Below are positions 5,235 through 37,800 of a stretch of DNA of 64,000 bases, piece by piece. A program made the translations under genes and the position numbers. Position 1 is the stretch's first letter; each line of letters opens with the position of its first letter. Location: assembly GCA_001574975.1 (NCBI GenBank), contig KQ965734.1, positions 670,249-734,248 of the forward strand, given 5' to 3'. Source of the stretch: Gonapodya prolifera JEL478. Taxonomy: Eukaryota; Monoblepharomycota; Monoblepharidomycetes; Monoblepharidales; Gonapodyaceae. The notes beneath the pieces are model-generated. The model was not told the origin of the DNA. It did not search any database and was given only the letters and a program-made list of their open reading frames with translations.

Positions 5235-5729
5235 TTATAACGCCCTCGCGCCTGCCACCCTTGCACACTCGCTCAACAGCACAGGCACATCGTACTTGTC
5301 CGCAAACGCCTCCAGCTGCGCCAATTTTTCGCGCGTTCCCTCGAAGCACGTCGCGCGGCACTCGCAGTACGGGTGGTACAGCCACACGAGGAACCGACGC
5401 ACTACAGATGCATGGTCGGTGAGGGGAAAGATCTGTGTGTTCGTGGGTGGGTTATGTATTCGCGGTGGGCGGGAATGACGTGACACCGGCAAACTCACGA
5501 CGGTCTCACCACCACCACCGGCGTCCCGGGAGACGCCCAGATCCTCCACCAGCGCTCTGAAAAAACTTGACGCGAGGGAAAGCATGCTGGCGTGGACTTT
5601 GAACTGGACCACCGCCGCGGCCGTGGGGGTTGGCGCTGTGATGGGGGTCGAAAGGGGCGCTTGCAGAATGACGTCGCCCGTGCGGAAGAAGAACGAGTCT
5701 GAACGTGTGATTTTGGGTGGAGTGGACAT
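5235..5729 (-). CDS. small BTB/POZ domain protein
   Basis: Two exons, 5729..5499 and 5432..5235, separated by a 66-bp intron whose length keeps the frame open; spliced protein 142 aa. The sequence is essentially one BTB fold: the strand-helix start (TGDVILQAP, VQFKVHASMLSLASSFFRAL), then after the junction the helix FPLTDHASVVRRFLVWLY and the end helices (LEAFADKYDVPVLL). No Kelch, BACK, MATH or zinc-finger domain follows. Such stand-alone BTB proteins usually dimerise and can act as adaptors for cullin-3 ubiquitin ligases; the role here is unknown. A related but decayed BTB gene lies at 50654-51820. Confidence 0.8.
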   Translation of the reverse strand: MSTPPKITRSDSFFFRTGDVILQAPLSTPITAPTPTAAAVVQFKVHASMLSLASSFFRALVEDLGVSRDAGGGGETVVSLPVSRHSRPPRIHNPPTNTQIFPLTDHASVVRRFLVWLYHPYCECRATCFEGTREKLAQLEAFADKYDVPVLLSECARVAGARAL

Positions 5730-5981: not shown

Positions 5982-8480
5982 TTACACCCGACCCAACACC
6001 TCCCCAATCCTCTCCAACTCCTCTGCCACCCTTGTAAATGACGGCCGCTCCTCCGGCCTCTCCCTCCAACACCACTCGACAACGTCACCCACTCGCCGCA
6101 CCACCTCCCTCGCGCTCTCCTCCTCCCCACCACTTGCAAACCGGCCGACCACTCCCTCAGTGTCCCACGCCGCCCTCTCACCCCTCAACGTCCTTTGCAC
6201 GGCCTCCTCCGTTCCCAACCCCTCCCACAACGACTCCACCCCATGCATGACCTCATACGCGACGGTCCCGAACATGAACACGTCCGCCGGGGGCTCGTAC
6301 ACGGTCGCGTCTGAAAGGGCCTCGGGGGCGTACCGCCGACACGCCCCGCGGAGGACTTTGGACACGTCGCCACGTGGCTTGGCTTGCGAAAAGTCTGACA
6401 CGGCAGCACGAAGACCGCCCGTGGGAGTGGACGAGATCAGGATGTTGTCGAGGGAGAGGTCGCGGTGGACCCACCCCGTGCGCGCGTGGGCGGGGCACGG
6501 CGGCTGCGGCTGCGGCGCACCTTCCTCGCCTTCATCCCCGTCAGCGCCGACACCGATGCCGACCCCGACGTCCTCCCCGGCAACGTGAGCCATGCCCCTC
6601 GCGACCTGTCTCAGCACATCCACGCTCTGCCACAGCGACATCCCCTTCCGCGCCGAAAGCACCGCGGTAAGGTTTCCCCTATCCGCCAGCTCAAGCGCCT
6701 CGACCGCATGGGTCGGCGTGACACCGCACCCGACAAGGTGCACCACATTGGGGTGCCTGAACGCCGCCAGGGCAAGCACTTCACGCGCAAACGAGGTCAG
6801 GGTGCGTTTCAGCTGGGGCGCGCGAAGGTCGTACATCTTCACCGCCACGTCGCGGCCCGAGGGAGTGTGGCGCAGGATGTACGCCGGGGCCACTCGGCCG
6901 GCGCCTAGGCGGGTGGAGGGGGACGGGGAGCCGGAAATGTCGGTGGCGAAGAGGAGGTGCGGTGGGTGGGTTGGGCATACGTGGAGAGTGCCGAGGGTTG
7001 GGTCGGGGTGGGATGGGAGGGGTGTGGCGAGGGGTGTGGGCGAGAGGATTCCGAGCAGGATTGAGCGGAGGGGGGTCGGTGGGGTGGTGTTGAGGTGTGA
7101 GATGAGTGATTTGTAGAGGGGCGAGGCGGATAAAAGTTTGGGAAGTGCGGTGGTGCCAGCGATGGCAGTGCTGCTCCGGGTGGGGCGGTCGACGGGCATT
7201 CGGGCCTTCTTGCCGTTGGTGGTTTTTCCAGCTGATGCGCTGTCGGCCAATCCACTCGAACTCGCGAATCTGCCATTCCCCTTCACGTTACCGCCACCAG
7301 CTTCCCTCGTCTCTCTGCCATCTGCCGTCCCTGCCCTGCGTGGACCTGCCACGGCAAGGACCCCGTTCCCATTCTCTCCGCCACCCTCCCGCCTTAACAT
7401 CCACTCCCTCACAACCCTCTCCAACCCTTCCACCGCATGCCGATCCACCAACCCCTCGACGCCCACCCCCCTCAGCAATCTGGACCTGACATTCGTCGAC
7501 GACAACCCCGGCGTCTGGCCCACGGGCACGGCGATCACCGAGGAAGGGTAGGGTGACAGATCGGGCGCGGGTTCGTGCGAGGGGTACGCGATGACGTAGT
7601 CCCGCGGACGGCGGATGCGCGCGAGGGCGTCCAGGCCGCCGATAGAGAGGATGTGGAGTGTGGCCGGGTGGGAGTCAGGTGTGGTGATGGGAGTGGAGGA
7701 AGATGATGTGGGTGAACTGTCAGTGCCACCCGCTCCGTCGATGCCGCTACCACGCATTGTCTCGAAACTCGCTGTCGCGACCCCATTGGCACTGATTGTC
7801 TCGACACTCGCTGGGTCGACCCCAGTGTCATTCGATGTCTCAACACCCGCTGACTCCACCCCAATGGCACTCATGTTCTCGATACCTGCTAAGCCATCCC
7901 TATTGCCACTCGGTGTCGCGAGCGCTGCCGCGAGATACGAGCTGTACTGGGTGGAAAAGGCGGCCTCGACGTGTGTCCTGATCCTGTCTGCCGTTGCTGC
8001 TGCGTACGAATCCTGCCTGACTTGCCAATCATCCATGGCCAGCCAGGTGTTAAACCTATCCCGCGCCGCTGCAGCCTGGGGGTCGTCTTCCGTGCCGTCA
8101 TAAACGTCTACGGGGGGCGCCGAGTTGCGCAGGACAGCGGTAATGAGAGGCAGTCTGACCACGGCGGGCGCAAACACGGCATGCGGGCTATGGCCGTGCG
8201 GGTCTGAGGCGAGGTGCGCGGGTAGGTCCGGGTCGACGCACGCCGCGAGTTTCGAGACTGCGCGTCTGTCAGGCACGGGTGTGATGTAAGCGCCTGCGAC
8301 GTGCGTGTTTTCCTGAGCGTTGAAGAATGCGCGCACGGCCGCGAGCACTCTGAGATGGTTGCAGTGCAGGGGGGCAAATGTGCCGTTGTAGGTCAGCACG
8401 ATGTTTCTCGTGCGCGGGGAGAAGTCGAAGCGCAGGACGTGCGAGGGGAAGGGATCACGCGAGGGAGCGGAGAACGCCAT
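5982..8480 (-). CDS. NMNAT-like nucleotidyltransferase fused to protein kinase
   Basis: Single-exon gene, 831 aa from the first in-frame ATG; the open frame extends 102 nt further upstream to a TGA without an ATG. Residues 20-390 resemble the NMNAT/NadD nucleotidyltransferase fold: NGTFAPLHCNHLRVL matches the GxFxPxHxxHL active-site loop, and LSSTNVRSRLLRG matches the ISSTxIR loop near the fold's end. A Ser/Thr-rich, repeat-containing insert separates these two motifs. Residues ~530-831 form a eukaryotic protein kinase of tyrosine-kinase-like type: glycine loop GAGRVAPAY, VAVKMYD lysine, WVHRDLSLDNIL catalytic loop, VSDFSQAK in place of DFG, RYAPEAL for APE. The third DFG residue is Ser. NMNAT makes NAD from NMN and ATP; whether this domain is active and what the kinase phosphorylates cannot be read from sequence. 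No gap or splice signal separates the halves, so the fusion is a direct reading. Confidence 0.85.
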   Translation of the reverse strand: MAFSAPSRDPFPSHVLRFDFSPRTRNIVLTYNGTFAPLHCNHLRVLAAVRAFFNAQENTHVAGAYITPVPDRRAVSKLAACVDPDLPAHLASDPHGHSPHAVFAPAVVRLPLITAVLRNSAPPVDVYDGTEDDPQAAAARDRFNTWLAMDDWQVRQDSYAAATADRIRTHVEAAFSTQYSSYLAAALATPSGNRDGLAGIENMSAIGVESAGVETSNDTGVDPASVETISANGVATASFETMRGSGIDGAGGTDSSPTSSSSTPITTPDSHPATLHILSIGGLDALARIRRPRDYVIAYPSHEPAPDLSPYPSSVIAVPVGQTPGLSSTNVRSRLLRGVGVEGLVDRHAVEGLERVVREWMLRREGGGENGNGVLAVAGPRRAGTADGRETREAGGGNVKGNGRFASSSGLADSASAGKTTNGKKARMPVDRPTRSSTAIAGTTALPKLLSASPLYKSLISHLNTTPPTPLRSILLGILSPTPLATPLPSHPDPTLGTLHVCPTHPPHLLFATDISGSPSPSTRLGAGRVAPAYILRHTPSGRDVAVKMYDLRAPQLKRTLTSFAREVLALAAFRHPNVVHLVGCGVTPTHAVEALELADRGNLTAVLSARKGMSLWQSVDVLRQVARGMAHVAGEDVGVGIGVGADGDEGEEGAPQPQPPCPAHARTGWVHRDLSLDNILISSTPTGGLRAAVSDFSQAKPRGDVSKVLRGACRRYAPEALSDATVYEPPADVFMFGTVAYEVMHGVESLWEGLGTEEAVQRTLRGERAAWDTEGVVGRFASGGEEESAREVVRRVGDVVEWCWRERPEERPSFTRVAEELERIGEVLGRV

Positions 8481-16668: not shown

Positions 16669-18891
16669 CTAATCAGTGTAATCGTCAAGGACATAGACTC
16701 CGGCAGCGTCCAAAAAGTCCATCCAGTCATCTTCGTCCTCAAAAAACCCATCATTTGAGTCCACTTCTACATCATCCATTCCCCAAGCCATTTCGGCAAA
16801 GTCATCCTCTTCCGGTTCTGCCACAAAGACCGATATTTCAAGCCCGTATCGATTTCGAACATCAATGAGAGCACCCTCGTTGAAAACCTGCTCCATCTGA
16901 CCAGTGTACGCTCCACTTGTAACGACGTCTTCGCCGATTTCAAATTCCAAGTGGCGCAAAGTATGCAGCCGGCGGCGCGGGAGAGACTTTCCCACGTGGG
17001 CTTGGGTACCTTCTGGCTCCGCATATCCGTCGAGGCCCAGAAGACCGCGGACAAGTGCTTCTATGAGCACAACAATTCTGTGCACAGCATCGTCCATCGG
17101 GATCGTCACCATATCCGCGAGGTCTCGCAAAATTCTGGTCAATTCCACACTCGACACAGATATCGTCTCCAATCCCGGCATACTCGAAGAAATGTCTGAT
17201 CCAAACGTGTACCAAAATGATGGATTGTGTAGTGGTGGATCTTCGCGCATCGTTGGAGGAAAGCTCTCCTCATCTGCTGGAAGATCAACACAGAGGGCTT
17301 TTATTCGTGGGTACGATGTGCCATCTTCAATCTGCGGACGAGCAGCATTAATGAAGAAATTTTGAGGGATATAAAGCACAGGACCAAACTCTCGGAGATG
17401 TTGTAGGTGATTTGGCAATGCATGGAAGAGATCATAGAGAGTCCGGTCGTTCTCTACCGCAAAAGGATCGAACGCTTCGTCGCTGAGAAACCAGTCAAAT
17501 ATCTTCAGGGAGACAAGGAATTGAAACGATTGGACTGTTTTCAAAATAACGTCGGCACGTAGAAGCATTCCTCGAGACGAAGGCATCAATTCAAGCTCTT
17601 TCAAAGGTGCTTTGCGTCGTGCAACTTCAGTTTTCTCAACCAAATGTTGAGCTTCCGCGAGAGCGTCCTTCTCGGCGATCGCCAACCGCTCAAAAAGGTT
17701 GACAACATCCATATCTTCTTCGTGTGGGCCATCCAGCTCCAGTGTCAACGAGTCCATATCAACCCATTCCTCCAGCTTCAAACCGTCAAGTTGCCTCATG
17801 GACAGAATCTCCATTGATAAATTTCTGCACCCAGGAACGCCACTTCCATCCCACTTCAATTTCGTATCGGGCATATCCACGATAACCGTGTGAACATTCA
17901 AAGTCCGTGCAATCCTTTCCAAACTCAGACCGTGTGCACCCTCTCCGTATCGGACTTCGAGTGTGTCCCAGCTAGCCATAACGCTGCGGCGTAGCATAGA
18001 CTCTACCGAGTCCAGAATGAGTGCGGGGAGGTTGGCAATGCGGCGATAGACTTGAACCGGTATGTTCTGGCGGGGGGCTTGTCGCCAAACAAGGGGTACA
18101 GAGAGCCTGGCTGCAATAGGAAGTCGGGTGGAGACCTCAGGAGTAGCCTGTGCAGATGTTCGGTCACTGCGGTGGAGACCGCCTTGAAATCGCCAAGGAA
18201 AAGCGGTCTGGAAAGATGAACCACGCTTTTCGGCCGATGTTGCAAATCCTCGTCGAGTTAATTCGGCAGGAGATATCGCTGAATAGTGAAATTGCTCCAG
18301 GGGCGATAGAATTTGTGGGGTTCGTGGAACGTGAAATCCAGGATCCTGTATCCGCCGAGTTTTCGTTCGCGGATCGAAAAACTCCTCGTCTGTTTCGTCC
18401 GTGAGTACGACAGTGACGTAAGCAGGGACACGCTCTATAAACGGGAGAAGGTGACGCCGGAAAGCTCGGTTGAGCCGGGACAGGTGGGCGTAAAGAGAGA
18501 CCGGGGGGACGAATGGGAAGACGATCTTGTGCCAGAAGATCTCTGCAGGAAGACGTAGAAGCCAGTGAGGCTCCAAGCTTGCAGTTGCTGACGCTGGTAC
18601 GAACTCAGGAGCCTCCGGATTCAGTTCTGACATTGCAACATCTCCATTCGAACTCCGGCCGTCCGTACGAACTACACGCTCGATCGGCATTCCAAATACC
18701 GTATTTTGCATTTGATTGTGAAAGTTCCTTGCATCGCCCAAGATTCGTCTGTCTGATGATGGATCCAAATCCATCACATCCCATCCCCCCATCCCACGGC
18801 CTCGCCCACGATGATGCTGGTTTCCGCGACCTCGGCCTCGACCACCAGATCCTCTTCCGCGCCCTCCCCGACTACCGCGCCCATTGTTCAT
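16669..18891 (-). CDS. RGG-rich, PAM2-containing F-box-like protein
   Basis: Single exon, 740 aa. The start is the ATG beginning MNNGRGSRGGRG; the open frame runs 14 codons upstream without another ATG. Residues 4-35 form an RGG/RG-rich, RNA-binding-type tail. Near residue 90, SELNPEAPEFVPASA matches the PAM2 consensus LNPxAxEFxP, the peptide bound by the MLLE domain of poly(A)-binding protein. An F-box-like helix pair follows (HWLLRLPAEIFWHKIVFPFV, LYAHLSRLNRAFRRHLLPFI). The remainder is leucine-rich with no family I recognise and ends in an acidic tail. Read together, the layout suggests an SCF adaptor recruited to mRNPs through poly(A)-binding protein; the function is inference. The 16562-16668 gap to the HRQ1 start is only 107 bp, so the HRQ1 promoter is very compact. 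Confidence 0.75.
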   Translation of the reverse strand: MNNGRGSRGGRGRGSGGRGRGRGNQHHRGRGRGMGGWDVMDLDPSSDRRILGDARNFHNQMQNTVFGMPIERVVRTDGRSSNGDVAMSELNPEAPEFVPASATASLEPHWLLRLPAEIFWHKIVFPFVPPVSLYAHLSRLNRAFRRHLLPFIERVPAYVTVVLTDETDEEFFDPRTKTRRIQDPGFHVPRTPQILSPLEQFHYSAISPAELTRRGFATSAEKRGSSFQTAFPWRFQGGLHRSDRTSAQATPEVSTRLPIAARLSVPLVWRQAPRQNIPVQVYRRIANLPALILDSVESMLRRSVMASWDTLEVRYGEGAHGLSLERIARTLNVHTVIVDMPDTKLKWDGSGVPGCRNLSMEILSMRQLDGLKLEEWVDMDSLTLELDGPHEEDMDVVNLFERLAIAEKDALAEAQHLVEKTEVARRKAPLKELELMPSSRGMLLRADVILKTVQSFQFLVSLKIFDWFLSDEAFDPFAVENDRTLYDLFHALPNHLQHLREFGPVLYIPQNFFINAARPQIEDGTSYPRIKALCVDLPADEESFPPTMREDPPLHNPSFWYTFGSDISSSMPGLETISVSSVELTRILRDLADMVTIPMDDAVHRIVVLIEALVRGLLGLDGYAEPEGTQAHVGKSLPRRRLHTLRHLEFEIGEDVVTSGAYTGQMEQVFNEGALIDVRNRYGLEISVFVAEPEEDDFAEMAWGMDDVEVDSNDGFFEDEDDWMDFLDAAGVYVLDDYTD

Positions 18892-34218: not shown

Positions 34219-37200
34219 ATGGCGGGCGAGGCGGAGCGCACTCGGCTGGCAACTGCACTCGGCGAGCCCATGAGCGCAGTCGACAGATTCGAGTTCCTCG
34301 TGCAAGCAGTCATGCGCACGTGCACGCCTGACACCATTCGCGAGGCAAAGGATTGGGCTCTCGATAGGTGCCGCACCGTCGAGCAGTTTGATGCAATGCT
34401 CGCGGTCCTCGCGAGTGCGCAGCAGGCAGCGAGCAAATTCGAGGCAAGGCTTTATGCAGTGTATCTTGTCAATGATGTGCTGGCGCACAGGTGCGTTTTG
34501 GGGGTGGGGTTCGAGCAACGGAGGCTGTCGAGCAAAGCGAGACCCGAGGCCTAAGCACAGCAAGGTGCTGTCCGAGGACACGCGTGTAGCGAGCGTGTCC
34601 GCCGGAGGCAAGTCATCCGCGGAGCGAACCCGAGGCCTAAGCGCGAAGCGCTGACGGAGGAGTCCGCCGGAATGATACGGAGCAGAGCATACGTTTGAAA
34701 CAGCGGGCGGGTAGTTCGAGGAGAGAGCGATTCGAGGAGATTCGGATTGTGGGACAGTAGAGAGGAGGGAAGTCGAGAGACTATTCAGCAGACGCTGGAG
34801 AATGAGAGAGAGAGTAAGGAGCAGATGCTGGAGAAGGACAGAGAGGGCAATGAACGGATGCCTTGAACAATGGGAGAACCGGTGTGGGAAAATGACTGGG
34901 GGTCGACTTGGGACGGAAAGAGGAGGCGCGTGTGGACAGAGACAACGGAACATGTCCGGAAAAGGAAATCGAGAGAGCAGGTTTTGAGGCGACGACATAT
35001 TCTCTTGCGGCGTGGAAAACGAAACACCGCTCTCTCCTCCTCCATCACTCAACCACCACCAACAGCGACCGCCGCAAACTCGCTCCAGCCAAATCCGCGA
35101 TCCTCTCCAACGCGCCCGCGCTCCTGGCCTCGTCCCTCGCCGCCACGTCCGACAAGGACAAGATCGCCAAAGTCCACAAACTTGTCGACATTTGGGCCCA
35201 GAAGGCGTATTTTGCGGATGCGGATATCGCGTCGATACGGGAGGCTATTAGGGAGAGGCAGAAGCGTGCGTGTGCCGTCGTTACTGCCCTATTTGCCTCG
35301 TGTCCTTTTGCTCACCCGACACCCCTTTGTCAACTCGTCGACGTCCCTCATCCCGTCACCACACACACCCATCTCCCTCCCACATCTAGCCGCCCCCACA
35401 CCGCCCGCCACTCGTCCCGCGCAATACGCACACGCTCCTCCTCCCACACCTCCCACCGCTACCGTCCCTCCTCCATTCCCAACTCAATCTCAACTCCCCA
35501 TCCCGCACATCCCGGGCCTGCCACACATCCCTGGCGTGCCCCCACAGTTCCCCTTCCAGGTCCCGGGAGTCCCGGGGATCGCGCCCAATCCGGCGTTTCC
35601 GGTGGGAGGTGTCGGGTTCCCCGGTATTCCCGGCATCCCAGGACTTCCCGGAGTTCCGGGCTTCCCCGGAGCAATGGGGGCACCCGGTGTTCCTGGAGTC
35701 AACCCCATGTTCGGAAGACCTCTTGTTCCCGGGGCTCCCGCAGTCACAACGGCACAACAGGCTGTTCCTGCGCTCACCCCCGCGGCCCCCCACCCCGCCG
35801 CAACAGCAGGATCCCCACCTTCGAACCCAACGCCTTCCTTCACTCCACCCGTCCGGCCCGTCACCTCCAGCGCACCCACCACATCAACCTCATCCGACCC
35901 ACCCCGCCGACCCCGCCTCGCCTCGCCCTCGCCCTCGCCCTCCCCGCCGCGAGATCGCCCGCCCACGCCGCCGAGGAAGCGCGAAGGCCGGTGGGGGAAG
36001 GAAGCCCCCAGCGGTGGCACCACCGAGAGCGCCAAACCACCCTCCGACGGCAGCACACGGTGGGGCAAACCGGCACAGTCCGGCAGCGTGGTCGCCGACC
36101 TGCCCGCCCCCGCATCGTCGACAGGCCCGCCAACACCCGTCCCCACGTCGTCGCTCCCTGCGCACCTCCTACCTGCGTCTCTGCTCGTCCCGCTGTGCCC
36201 GCCCTCGCGCCCCGCATACGCTCCCGTGTCGGTGGCGATGCTGCGGCTCGTGGCCGTGCGGACTGAAGTGGAGCGCAAGGGAGCAGGAGCAGGCAGCGGG
36301 GCGGACGGCTCCAAGAGAGCCGAGGTTGTCGTGGCGGTGGACGAGATGCTTGGGGGGTGGGATGCCGTGCGCGCGGCGGTGGGTGCGTTTGGCGGAGGGA
36401 GGGACAAGGAGGGCAAGGAAGGGGAGGGAGGCGAAAGGGGGGAGGACGAAGTGCATAAGGGCCCCAGGTACGATGGGGAAGGGTGGGAGGTAGGGTACCT
36501 CGACTTTTGGTACGACAAGGTCCGCGCCGCTCGTGCGGCGTCTGCTGCGTCGGGGGACGGCGGCGGCTCCGGGTGGGCTCGGAGCGTGTCGGGAGGTCCT
36601 ACAGGGGACGACGATGATGATAAGCCCTACCTGTCTGAGGACGAGGTGGAGGAGAGGCTCAAGGCCGTGGGCGTGGTTCCGGGAGGGAAGAAGGACAGTG
36701 GCAGTCGGTGGGACAGGGCCGCGAGCAGGGGGAGCGGGACACGTTGGCTCAAGGGCGGTAGCAGGAGTCGAAGTCGGAGTCGGAGTAGTGGGCGGGGTAC
36801 AGGGAATAGTAAGAAGAGAAAAGCGGGAGGTCGGAGTGAGAGTGTCAGTGGGAGTCGGAGTCGAAGCAGGAGCAGGTCCAGGTCGGGCTCTCGTCCGCGA
36901 TCGTCGGGGCGCAAGCGGCGGAAAGACGGTGGGAAGGACAAAGGACGGAAGCGACGAGAGGGGCGCAGTAGGAGTCGGAGTCCCAGCCGGTCCAGGAGCA
37001 GCAGGTCGAGGAGCCGGTCGCGAAGCCGCTCCAGAAGCAGGTCCAGGACGAGGTCGAGAACACGGTCCCGGTCCCGCTCACGCTCCCGATCTGCGAGTCC
37101 GGGCTGGAAGAGACACAAGAGCCCGTCTTCGTCCCGGCGATCAGGTGGTGGTGGTGGATGGCGGGATGATGGTGGGGGCGCTCGAGGCGGCGGGTGGGAA

Positions 37201-37800
37201 AGAGGTGGTTTCGGTGGAGGTGGGTTTGGAGGAGGCGGTCGAGGTCGGGGAAGAGGGGGAGGTGAGTGGTGAGGGGCAGATTCTCGTTCCAAGAGGATGA
37301 CTGACTGGGATTTTGTCACTGTCTAGGATGGTCCGACGGATACTCTGGGGGACAAGGGGGTTTGGGTAACGGCGGTGGAGGTGCAAATTTTGGCGCCCCT
37401 GGTTTTGGTGGTGGTGGTGGTGGTGGCGGCGGGCCAACTGGTGGGACAGGTGACCCCTTCGAGTCCTTCCGTCGGGCCAAGTCGTACGCATTCGCGCCAG
37501 GGAGGGGAAGGGGGGCCGGAACGAGGGAGGAAGAATCGTGTTTCAAATGTGGTCGGGTGAGTGCTGGCTTTGTGGTCTGCTTTCTGTGTGGAAGAATACT
37601 GATTGGGTTTCGTGTTCGTGTTTTCGTCAATGAAATGCGTGTGTGATGGGCATCTTGTCGATTTGCCTCGGCATGGTACCACCGCCTTTCGCTTTCACGA
37701 CCATTAACATCGTTACTGGCTGGTGCCTTTGGGGACACAGCCCGGTCATTTTGCGAGGGAATGTCCTGAGATCGAGCCGTGGAAGACGAGGGGATTGTAG
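34219..37800 (+). CDS. CHERP-like CID/RS-domain splicing-associated protein
   Basis: Likely nuclear pre-mRNA processing factor. Exons 34219..34490, 35066..35265, 35390..37261, 37327..37556, 37741..37800; phases agree, 877 aa. Residues 1-157 form a CTD-interacting domain (CID): FEFLVQAVMRTCTPDTIREA, YAVYLVNDVLAHSDRRK, KVHKLVDIWAQKAYF. A Pro/Gly stretch with collagen-like PGxPG repeats follows, then PPTPPRKREGRWGK, then YDGEGWEVGYLDFWYDKVRA, which resembles the EGWE...YEFFRAKMRAR block of animal CHERP. Next come a long Arg-Ser domain, a Gly-rich block and a CCHC zinc knuckle (CFKCGR joined across a splice to PGHFAREC) at the very C-terminus. Unlike animal CHERP I see no N-terminal SURP domain. 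The first intron is 575 bp. Confidence 0.8.
34537..34643. repeat. short direct repeat inside an intron
   Basis: ACCCGAGGCCTAAGC occurs at about 34542 and 34628 inside the first intron of the CHERP-like gene, each preceded by AGCGA. Too short to classify. Confidence 0.4.

Follow-up and report, generated by a model that had tools for sequence, protein, structure and literature searches.

An NMNAT-like domain and a TKL-like protein kinase encoded by a single exon in Gonapodya prolifera

We describe a gene of Gonapodya prolifera JEL478 that encodes, in one open frame, a single protein whose two catalytic-type domains are connected by a linker of low complexity. The N-terminal domain resembles a divergent NMNAT/NadD nucleotidyltransferase and the C-terminal domain is a TKL-like protein kinase. 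Both domain families are known, and we found no described precedent for their pairing in the open-licence literature. The fusion is known from a single locus of a single genome. A chain that combines an NMNAT-type domain with a protein kinase would make a direct, testable link of NAD metabolism to signalling, and the fusion would show how fungal TKL kinases can acquire metabolic input domains. The fusion and the homology are supported by the evidence below; a coupling of NAD or ATP to the kinase is what we infer from them.

Results

The window, by which we mean the whole stretch of DNA that we analysed, is 64,000 nt of G. prolifera JEL478 (KQ965734.1, 670,249 to 734,248, forward strand). A preliminary description of this window had proposed that one uninterrupted exon carries two NMNAT/NadD-type loops followed by a kinase. 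We recovered an exon with the same coordinates, on the minus strand, and found each of the motifs that had been named (Table 1). The overall interpretation, a one-exon fusion with these two domain assignments, also stands, while the check on the fold of the N-terminal half depends on NadD sequences that we supplied.

Table 1. Features of the fusion gene, with positions in the window
Feature	Position	Strand	Basis
Whole single-exon ORF, NMNAT-like domain and TKL-like kinase	5982..8480	-	832 aa, with start (ATG) and stop codons
NMNAT/NadD-like nucleotidyltransferase domain, residues ~25-365, with inserts	7386..8408	-	Alignments, profile, AF2 model
GTFAPLHCNHL (residues 33-43), HxxH ATP-binding loop (H39, H42)	8352..8384	-	Alignment; motif role from the available part of PMC12470169
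NTWLAMDDW, aligned to STWIDVDDW of the canonical NMNAT	8025..8051	-	End-free global alignment, profile
Low-complexity insert in the NMNAT-like domain, residues 181-270	7671..7940	-	Alignment, GC3, pLDDT <50 for 199-259
39-bp tandem repeat inside the insert, 3.3 copies, 74% matches	7756..7882	.	Unit divisible by three (13 aa)
SSTNVR (residues 327-332), SxxxxR motif (S327, R332)	7485..7502	-	Alignment, motif positions
Low-complexity linker, residues 371-505	6966..7370	-	GC3, intron scan
TKL-like kinase domain, residues ~523-825; insert of ~30 residues near 637-666	6006..6914	-	Pfam matches
Catalytic loop HRDLSLDN (H672-N679) to DFS (D696-S698)	6384..6476	-	Motif positions

The ORF has a single full match in its own genome (47.6 Mb, 207 contigs). 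The other five frames of the region contain 8, 16, 17, 22, and 23 stops, and when the same length was simulated 300 times with a dinucleotide-Markov model, the longest open run reached at most 442 codons (mean 220), as compared to the 832 codons observed, so this frame is not a chance opening. In the NMNAT-like part and the kinase part, GC3 is 0.75-0.83; it is lower in the insert at residues 181-270 (0.58) and in the linker (0.68), both of which remain open. A relaxed scan for introns (GT...AG, 40-130 nt, with a branch-point-like site required) listed four candidates in the ORF, none in the linker and all elsewhere. The 39-bp minisatellite within the insert could differ in length among strains.

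The match of the N-terminal half to domain models falls below their cut-offs. Its sole Pfam match is PF01467, at 14.4 bits with a curated cut-off of 21, and TIGR00482 scores 14.7 bits with a cut-off of 112.45. Nevertheless, the matches from NCBIfam are headed by NadD models, three of them at E = 0.0044-0.058, and the single match from a sequence search of the PDB is an NMNAT (9iw1, E = 0.12).

Compared directly to eukaryotic NMNATs, the N-terminal ~180 residues show significant similarity. The local alignment of residues 27-80 to the canonical NMNAT of the same genome has a score of 65, which was reached by 0 of 500 shuffles of residues 1-180 (26.8 +- 4.5, z = 8.4) and by 0 of 500 shuffles of residues 1-385 (31.4 +- 4.5, z = 7.4). 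A two-sequence profile (the canonical NMNAT and 9iw1) matches residues 1-385 with E = 3e-7, as a single comparison, and the best value from 300 shuffles was 0.002. Further blocks of the profile follow in order at residues 144-178 and about 324-351, each weak alone (E of about 0.002-0.1). The block with NTWLAMDDW has E = 0.016, and SSTNVR is placed onto the SxxxxR region both by profile pieces with E = 0.002-0.1 and in a MAFFT alignment. Residues 271-385 alone are not significantly similar to the genome's NMNAT (the score is equalled or exceeded in 71 of 500 shuffles), and that alignment misses SSTNVR; an end-free global alignment of residues 1-385 to the same protein misplaces it. With a four-sequence NMNAT profile, hhalign reported a probability of 17% and E = 0.0015 over 24 columns.

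We also compared this half to NadDs. Of 25 NadD loci that we retrieved (3 + 22), 23 were used, and we omitted L023, whose listed values equal those of L021, as well as L029, a partial match. Identity to the 23 NadDs is 14-22%, and relative to them the fusion protein has extra segments at about 78-102, 122-145, and 180-268. It retains 9 of the 10 columns that are invariant in the NadDs (in 100 shuffles, mean 4.7 and maximum 8). Where at least 80% of the NadDs agree, 13 of 26 columns are retained, which is within the range of the shuffles (mean 9.7, maximum 15). Taking these comparisons together, residues ~25-365 look like an NMNAT/NadD nucleotidyltransferase that has diverged, and homology is supported. 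As a side observation, NadD-type genes lie on 22 contigs of the viral collection (L012-L033), two of them on contigs of more than 500 kb (L012 and L032).

Both loops that had been described as NMNAT/NadD-type are intact. The (H/T)xxH motif in the GxFxP loop is retained (G33, F35, P37, H39, and H42), as is SxxxxR (S327 to R332), and the two occur in the correct order. The available part of PMC12470169 states that (H/T)xxH binds the phosphates of ATP and that its second histidine is essential for catalysis; SxxxxR also contacts ATP, is dispensable for synthesis, and is required for chaperone activity. According to the same excerpt, the tryptophan equal to human W169 is conserved in the eukaryotic NMNATs examined except Pof1. 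In the MAFFT alignment, the tryptophan position of the NadDs is P292 in the fusion protein, and the region around it is longer in both the NadDs and the canonical NMNAT. The NadD tryptophan aligns with the tryptophan of the genome's canonical NMNAT, and its equivalence to W169 comes from this alignment together with what we have of PMC12470169.

Structure prediction gave a divided answer as to whether this half adopts a Rossmann-type fold. Without an alignment, the AF2 model of residues 1-385 was uninformative (pLDDT 34.6, with no NMNAT among the best 50 matches listed). With 23 NadD rows, AF2 predicted an NMNAT-type fold for residues ~25-365, with mean pLDDT of 62.4 and pTM of 0.60; within the core, most blocks of ten residues are at 68-87, and the weaker parts are residues 61-100 (43-53) and the insert at 199-259 (<50). 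This model is supportive, but it was given the NadD rows, and the one built without them was of no use; it is therefore partly circular and not independent, and it neither counts against the proposed fold nor proves it by itself. The ranking by Foldseek is more independent: human NMNAT (1kku) is at the top with E = 5.8e-4, the only match below 0.001, and Chaetomium NMNAT is second with E = 1.9e-3. VIA-align matched the same model to a bacterial NadD (5vir_B, Z = 18.2, rmsd 2.3, 179 aligned) and to Chaetomium NMNAT (9iw1_B, Z = 16.0, rmsd 3.3, 201 aligned), and phosphopantetheine adenylyltransferases scored at most 11.5 among the best 50 matches listed.

The genome also encodes a separate canonical NMNAT (locus L003, G000:C2 at about 523.7 kb), with E = 5e-60 to solved NMNATs; its protein model was built from six exons by reading splice sites and has no assigned start codon. 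We had considered that the fusion gene might be the genome's only NMNAT, and we rejected this idea on finding the canonical one. Because the canonical NMNAT is present, the fusion protein is probably not the housekeeping NMNAT, and a specialised or regulatory role is likelier than bulk supply of NAD. The canonical eukaryotic NMNATs (the genome's own, 9iw1, and 1kku) share with the fusion protein the GxFxP loop with HLR, PVxD, TWxxxDDW, and SxxxxR. They differ from it in having TxxH where it has HxxH, and the fusion protein has a shortened tryptophan region and extra inserts. Where the fusion protein has its large insert, human NMNAT1 too is longer than the genome's NMNAT. Furthermore, the genome's canonical NMNAT has six exons rather than one, and only the fusion has a kinase attached. 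A search of the genome with PF01467 found two members, neither of which is the fusion or the canonical NMNAT, so such a search overlooks members that are divergent or split by introns. We take these two members to be a choline-phosphate-cytidylyltransferase-like frame and a phosphopantetheine-adenylyltransferase-like frame.

The kinase half is well above the cut-offs of its Pfam models: PF07714 matches with E = 1.2e-26 (94 bits, cut-off 23.1) and PF00069 with E = 1e-24 (87.8 bits, cut-off 31.7). So profile searches of the two halves bear out the kinase that was first proposed and leave the PF01467 score of the other half short of its threshold. The matches of PF07714 and PF00069 are both split in two, with the best pieces covering residues 669-822 and 523-633, and a glycine-rich, acidic insert of ~30 residues separates them. 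The catalytic residues K548, E567, D674 (of HRD), N679, and D696 are retained, with APE at 718-720. HRDLSLDN is intact and DFG has become DFS, with serine as the third residue, both as initially reported; the P-loop is GAGRVA, with its third glycine replaced by alanine. Loss of the glycine of DFG does not by itself predict a dead kinase. The kinase is apparently active and probably specific for Ser/Thr.

As described in the accessible part of PMC3937382, CW(X)6RPXF is a motif of TK and TKL kinases, and certain other motifs are found in TKs only. Reading by eye, we found CW(X)6RPXF in this kinase, as CWRERPEERPSF, and none of the TK-only motifs DL(R/A)A(A/R)N, P(I/V)(K/R)W(T/M)APE, and GxR(L/M). 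TKL thus seems to be the fitting group, with the caveat that these motifs exclude TK rather than prove TKL. The fungal TKL kinases described in the portions of PMC2838846 and PMC3937382 that we have likewise combine a PF07714-type kinase with CW(X)6RPXF, but their partner domain differs from the one here. In a TK-related fungal lineage, 16 of 241 members have an additional domain (PMC3937382, in part). G. prolifera itself has a large set of TKL-like kinases, with at least 144 exon-level matches to PK_Tyr_Ser-Thr (PF07714), two of which are from the fusion gene. When compared to its own genome, the kinase half matches itself and, weakly, four kinases (28-34% identity).

We found no relatives of the N-terminal half in viral contigs (1 stretch matched a pattern) or in genome contigs (37 stretches matched), and tblastn against phages gave no match at E = 0.01. 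Because these collections hold no other eukaryote, the absence of relatives says little. The N-terminal half matched 0 of the 3 bacterial genomes that we reached via L009-L011. In its own genome, residues 1-200 match nothing besides themselves, and the full fusion protein matches itself and two kinases. The canonical NMNAT had no relative in the viral contigs either (3 stretches matched).

Among the titles and abstract openings listed by our searches of an open-licence paper library, we found no fusion of an NMNAT to a protein kinase. CTP_transf_3 of PMC4102429 is a different family.

Discussion

What does the fusion protein do? We think that there is about an even chance that its N-terminal half is an NMNAT-like sensor or slow enzyme, binding ATP and a mononucleotide, whose ligand state regulates an active kinase. 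The N-terminal domain would bind ATP along with a mononucleotide, for example NMN or NaMN, and its turnover would be slow or nil; we expect this by analogy with Pof1 of yeast. Given that the two domains are fused, the ligand or conformational state of the first may regulate the second, and phosphorylation might thereby follow the status of NAD precursors or of ATP. The separate canonical NMNAT would carry out bulk synthesis of NAD. It is plausible, as was originally suggested, that the substrate of the partner domain is sensed by the kinase.

Two known proteins are useful for comparison. First, yeast Pof1 is described in the available part of PMC13191266 as a less efficient NMNAT and an ATPase, which needs H43 but not R227 for NAD synthesis. 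Like the fusion protein, and in its motifs only, Pof1 keeps T/HxxH and SxxxxR, lacks the equivalent of W169, and occurs alongside canonical NMNATs; unlike it, Pof1 has no protein kinase that is mentioned in the accessible parts of PMC13191266 and PMC12470169. Second, there is NadR. The kinase of NadR is not known to have the protein-kinase fold. As far as the excerpt of PMC7221760 goes, NadR combines an NMNAT with a nicotinamide riboside kinase, so that, as in the fusion, an NMNAT and a second ATP-using domain lie in one chain; but NadR is bacterial and its kinase acts on nicotinamide riboside. NMNATs are chaperones as well as enzymes. The turnover of mouse NMNAT2 involves MAPK/JNK signalling (PMC12470169, in part).

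A bolder version of our preferred reading is that this is the first kinase gated by NAD or its precursors: the NMNAT-type domain would read NMN/NaMN, NAD, or ATP and switch the attached TKL kinase. This is possible, although we are doubtful of it. If it is true, then NAD metabolism is coupled to phosphorylation in a direct way in a zoosporic fungus.

The main rival to regulation of the kinase by its partner is control in the reverse direction, in which the kinase regulates the enzyme or places it. The protein would be a working second NMNAT for local synthesis of NAD/NaAD, and the kinase would recruit or regulate it rather than be regulated by it. HxxH and SxxxxR are both intact, including the histidine on which catalysis depends in other NMNATs, and Pof1 supports NAD synthesis without the same tryptophan (PMC13191266 and PMC12470169, as far as available). 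On the other hand, P292 occupies the tryptophan position in a shortened region, and the genome has a canonical NMNAT already. We consider it unlikely that the protein works in this way.

It is less likely still that the N-terminal half is a degenerate NMNAT domain that serves the active kinase as a scaffold or chaperone-like module, with no role for a ligand. The strong divergence from the NadDs, the extra segments, and the replaced tryptophan would fit with this, and so would the tie between SxxxxR and chaperone activity in other NMNATs (PMC12470169, in part), but both of the ATP-binding motifs have been retained despite the divergence.

We think it very unlikely that the NMNAT-like and kinase parts are two adjacent genes, or a mis-joined frame, that were fused by chance or by the assembly. 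There is an in-frame Met at 428, inside the linker, and the linker's GC3 is below that of both domains. Nevertheless, the frame contains no stop, the linker contains no candidate intron, the assembly has 868 open codons from stop to stop, and coding-type periodicity is in the same frame on both sides of the linker. Least likely of all is that the N-terminal half is no nucleotidyltransferase and its two loops are chance matches: the PF01467 score, the failed single-sequence AF2 model, and the lack of significance at the 80% NadD columns and for residues 271-385 alone would allow it, but the similarity to eukaryotic NMNATs (z = 8.4, E = 3e-7), the 9 of 10 invariant columns, and Foldseek matches headed by human and Chaetomium NMNATs, neither of which was in the supplied alignment, argue against it.

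Having set out these alternatives, we still favor an NMNAT-like sensor or slow enzyme that precedes and regulates an active kinase.

We also noticed a few other features of the window and the genome. Directly downstream of the fusion gene and on the same strand, a short ORF (5235-5729) has a weak match to BTB/POZ (E = 0.0012, below the cut-off). Elsewhere in the window, a 740-aa ORF (16669-18891) has a weak match to the PAM2 motif (E = 0.0013, below the cut-off), the sole match of a 904-aa ORF (215-2929) is a weak one to the IQ motif (E = 0.0077, below the cut-off), and an 800-aa ORF (34870-37272) has no Pfam match at E = 0.01. In the genome as a whole, the matches to two families are together consistent with a zoosporic fungus: the radial-spoke family PF04712 has 8 matches, as compared to 0 of 14 bacterial and archaeal controls, and the chitin-synthase-type family PF03142 has 36 exon matches (best E = 2.6e-176) and is also found in 4 of the 14 controls.
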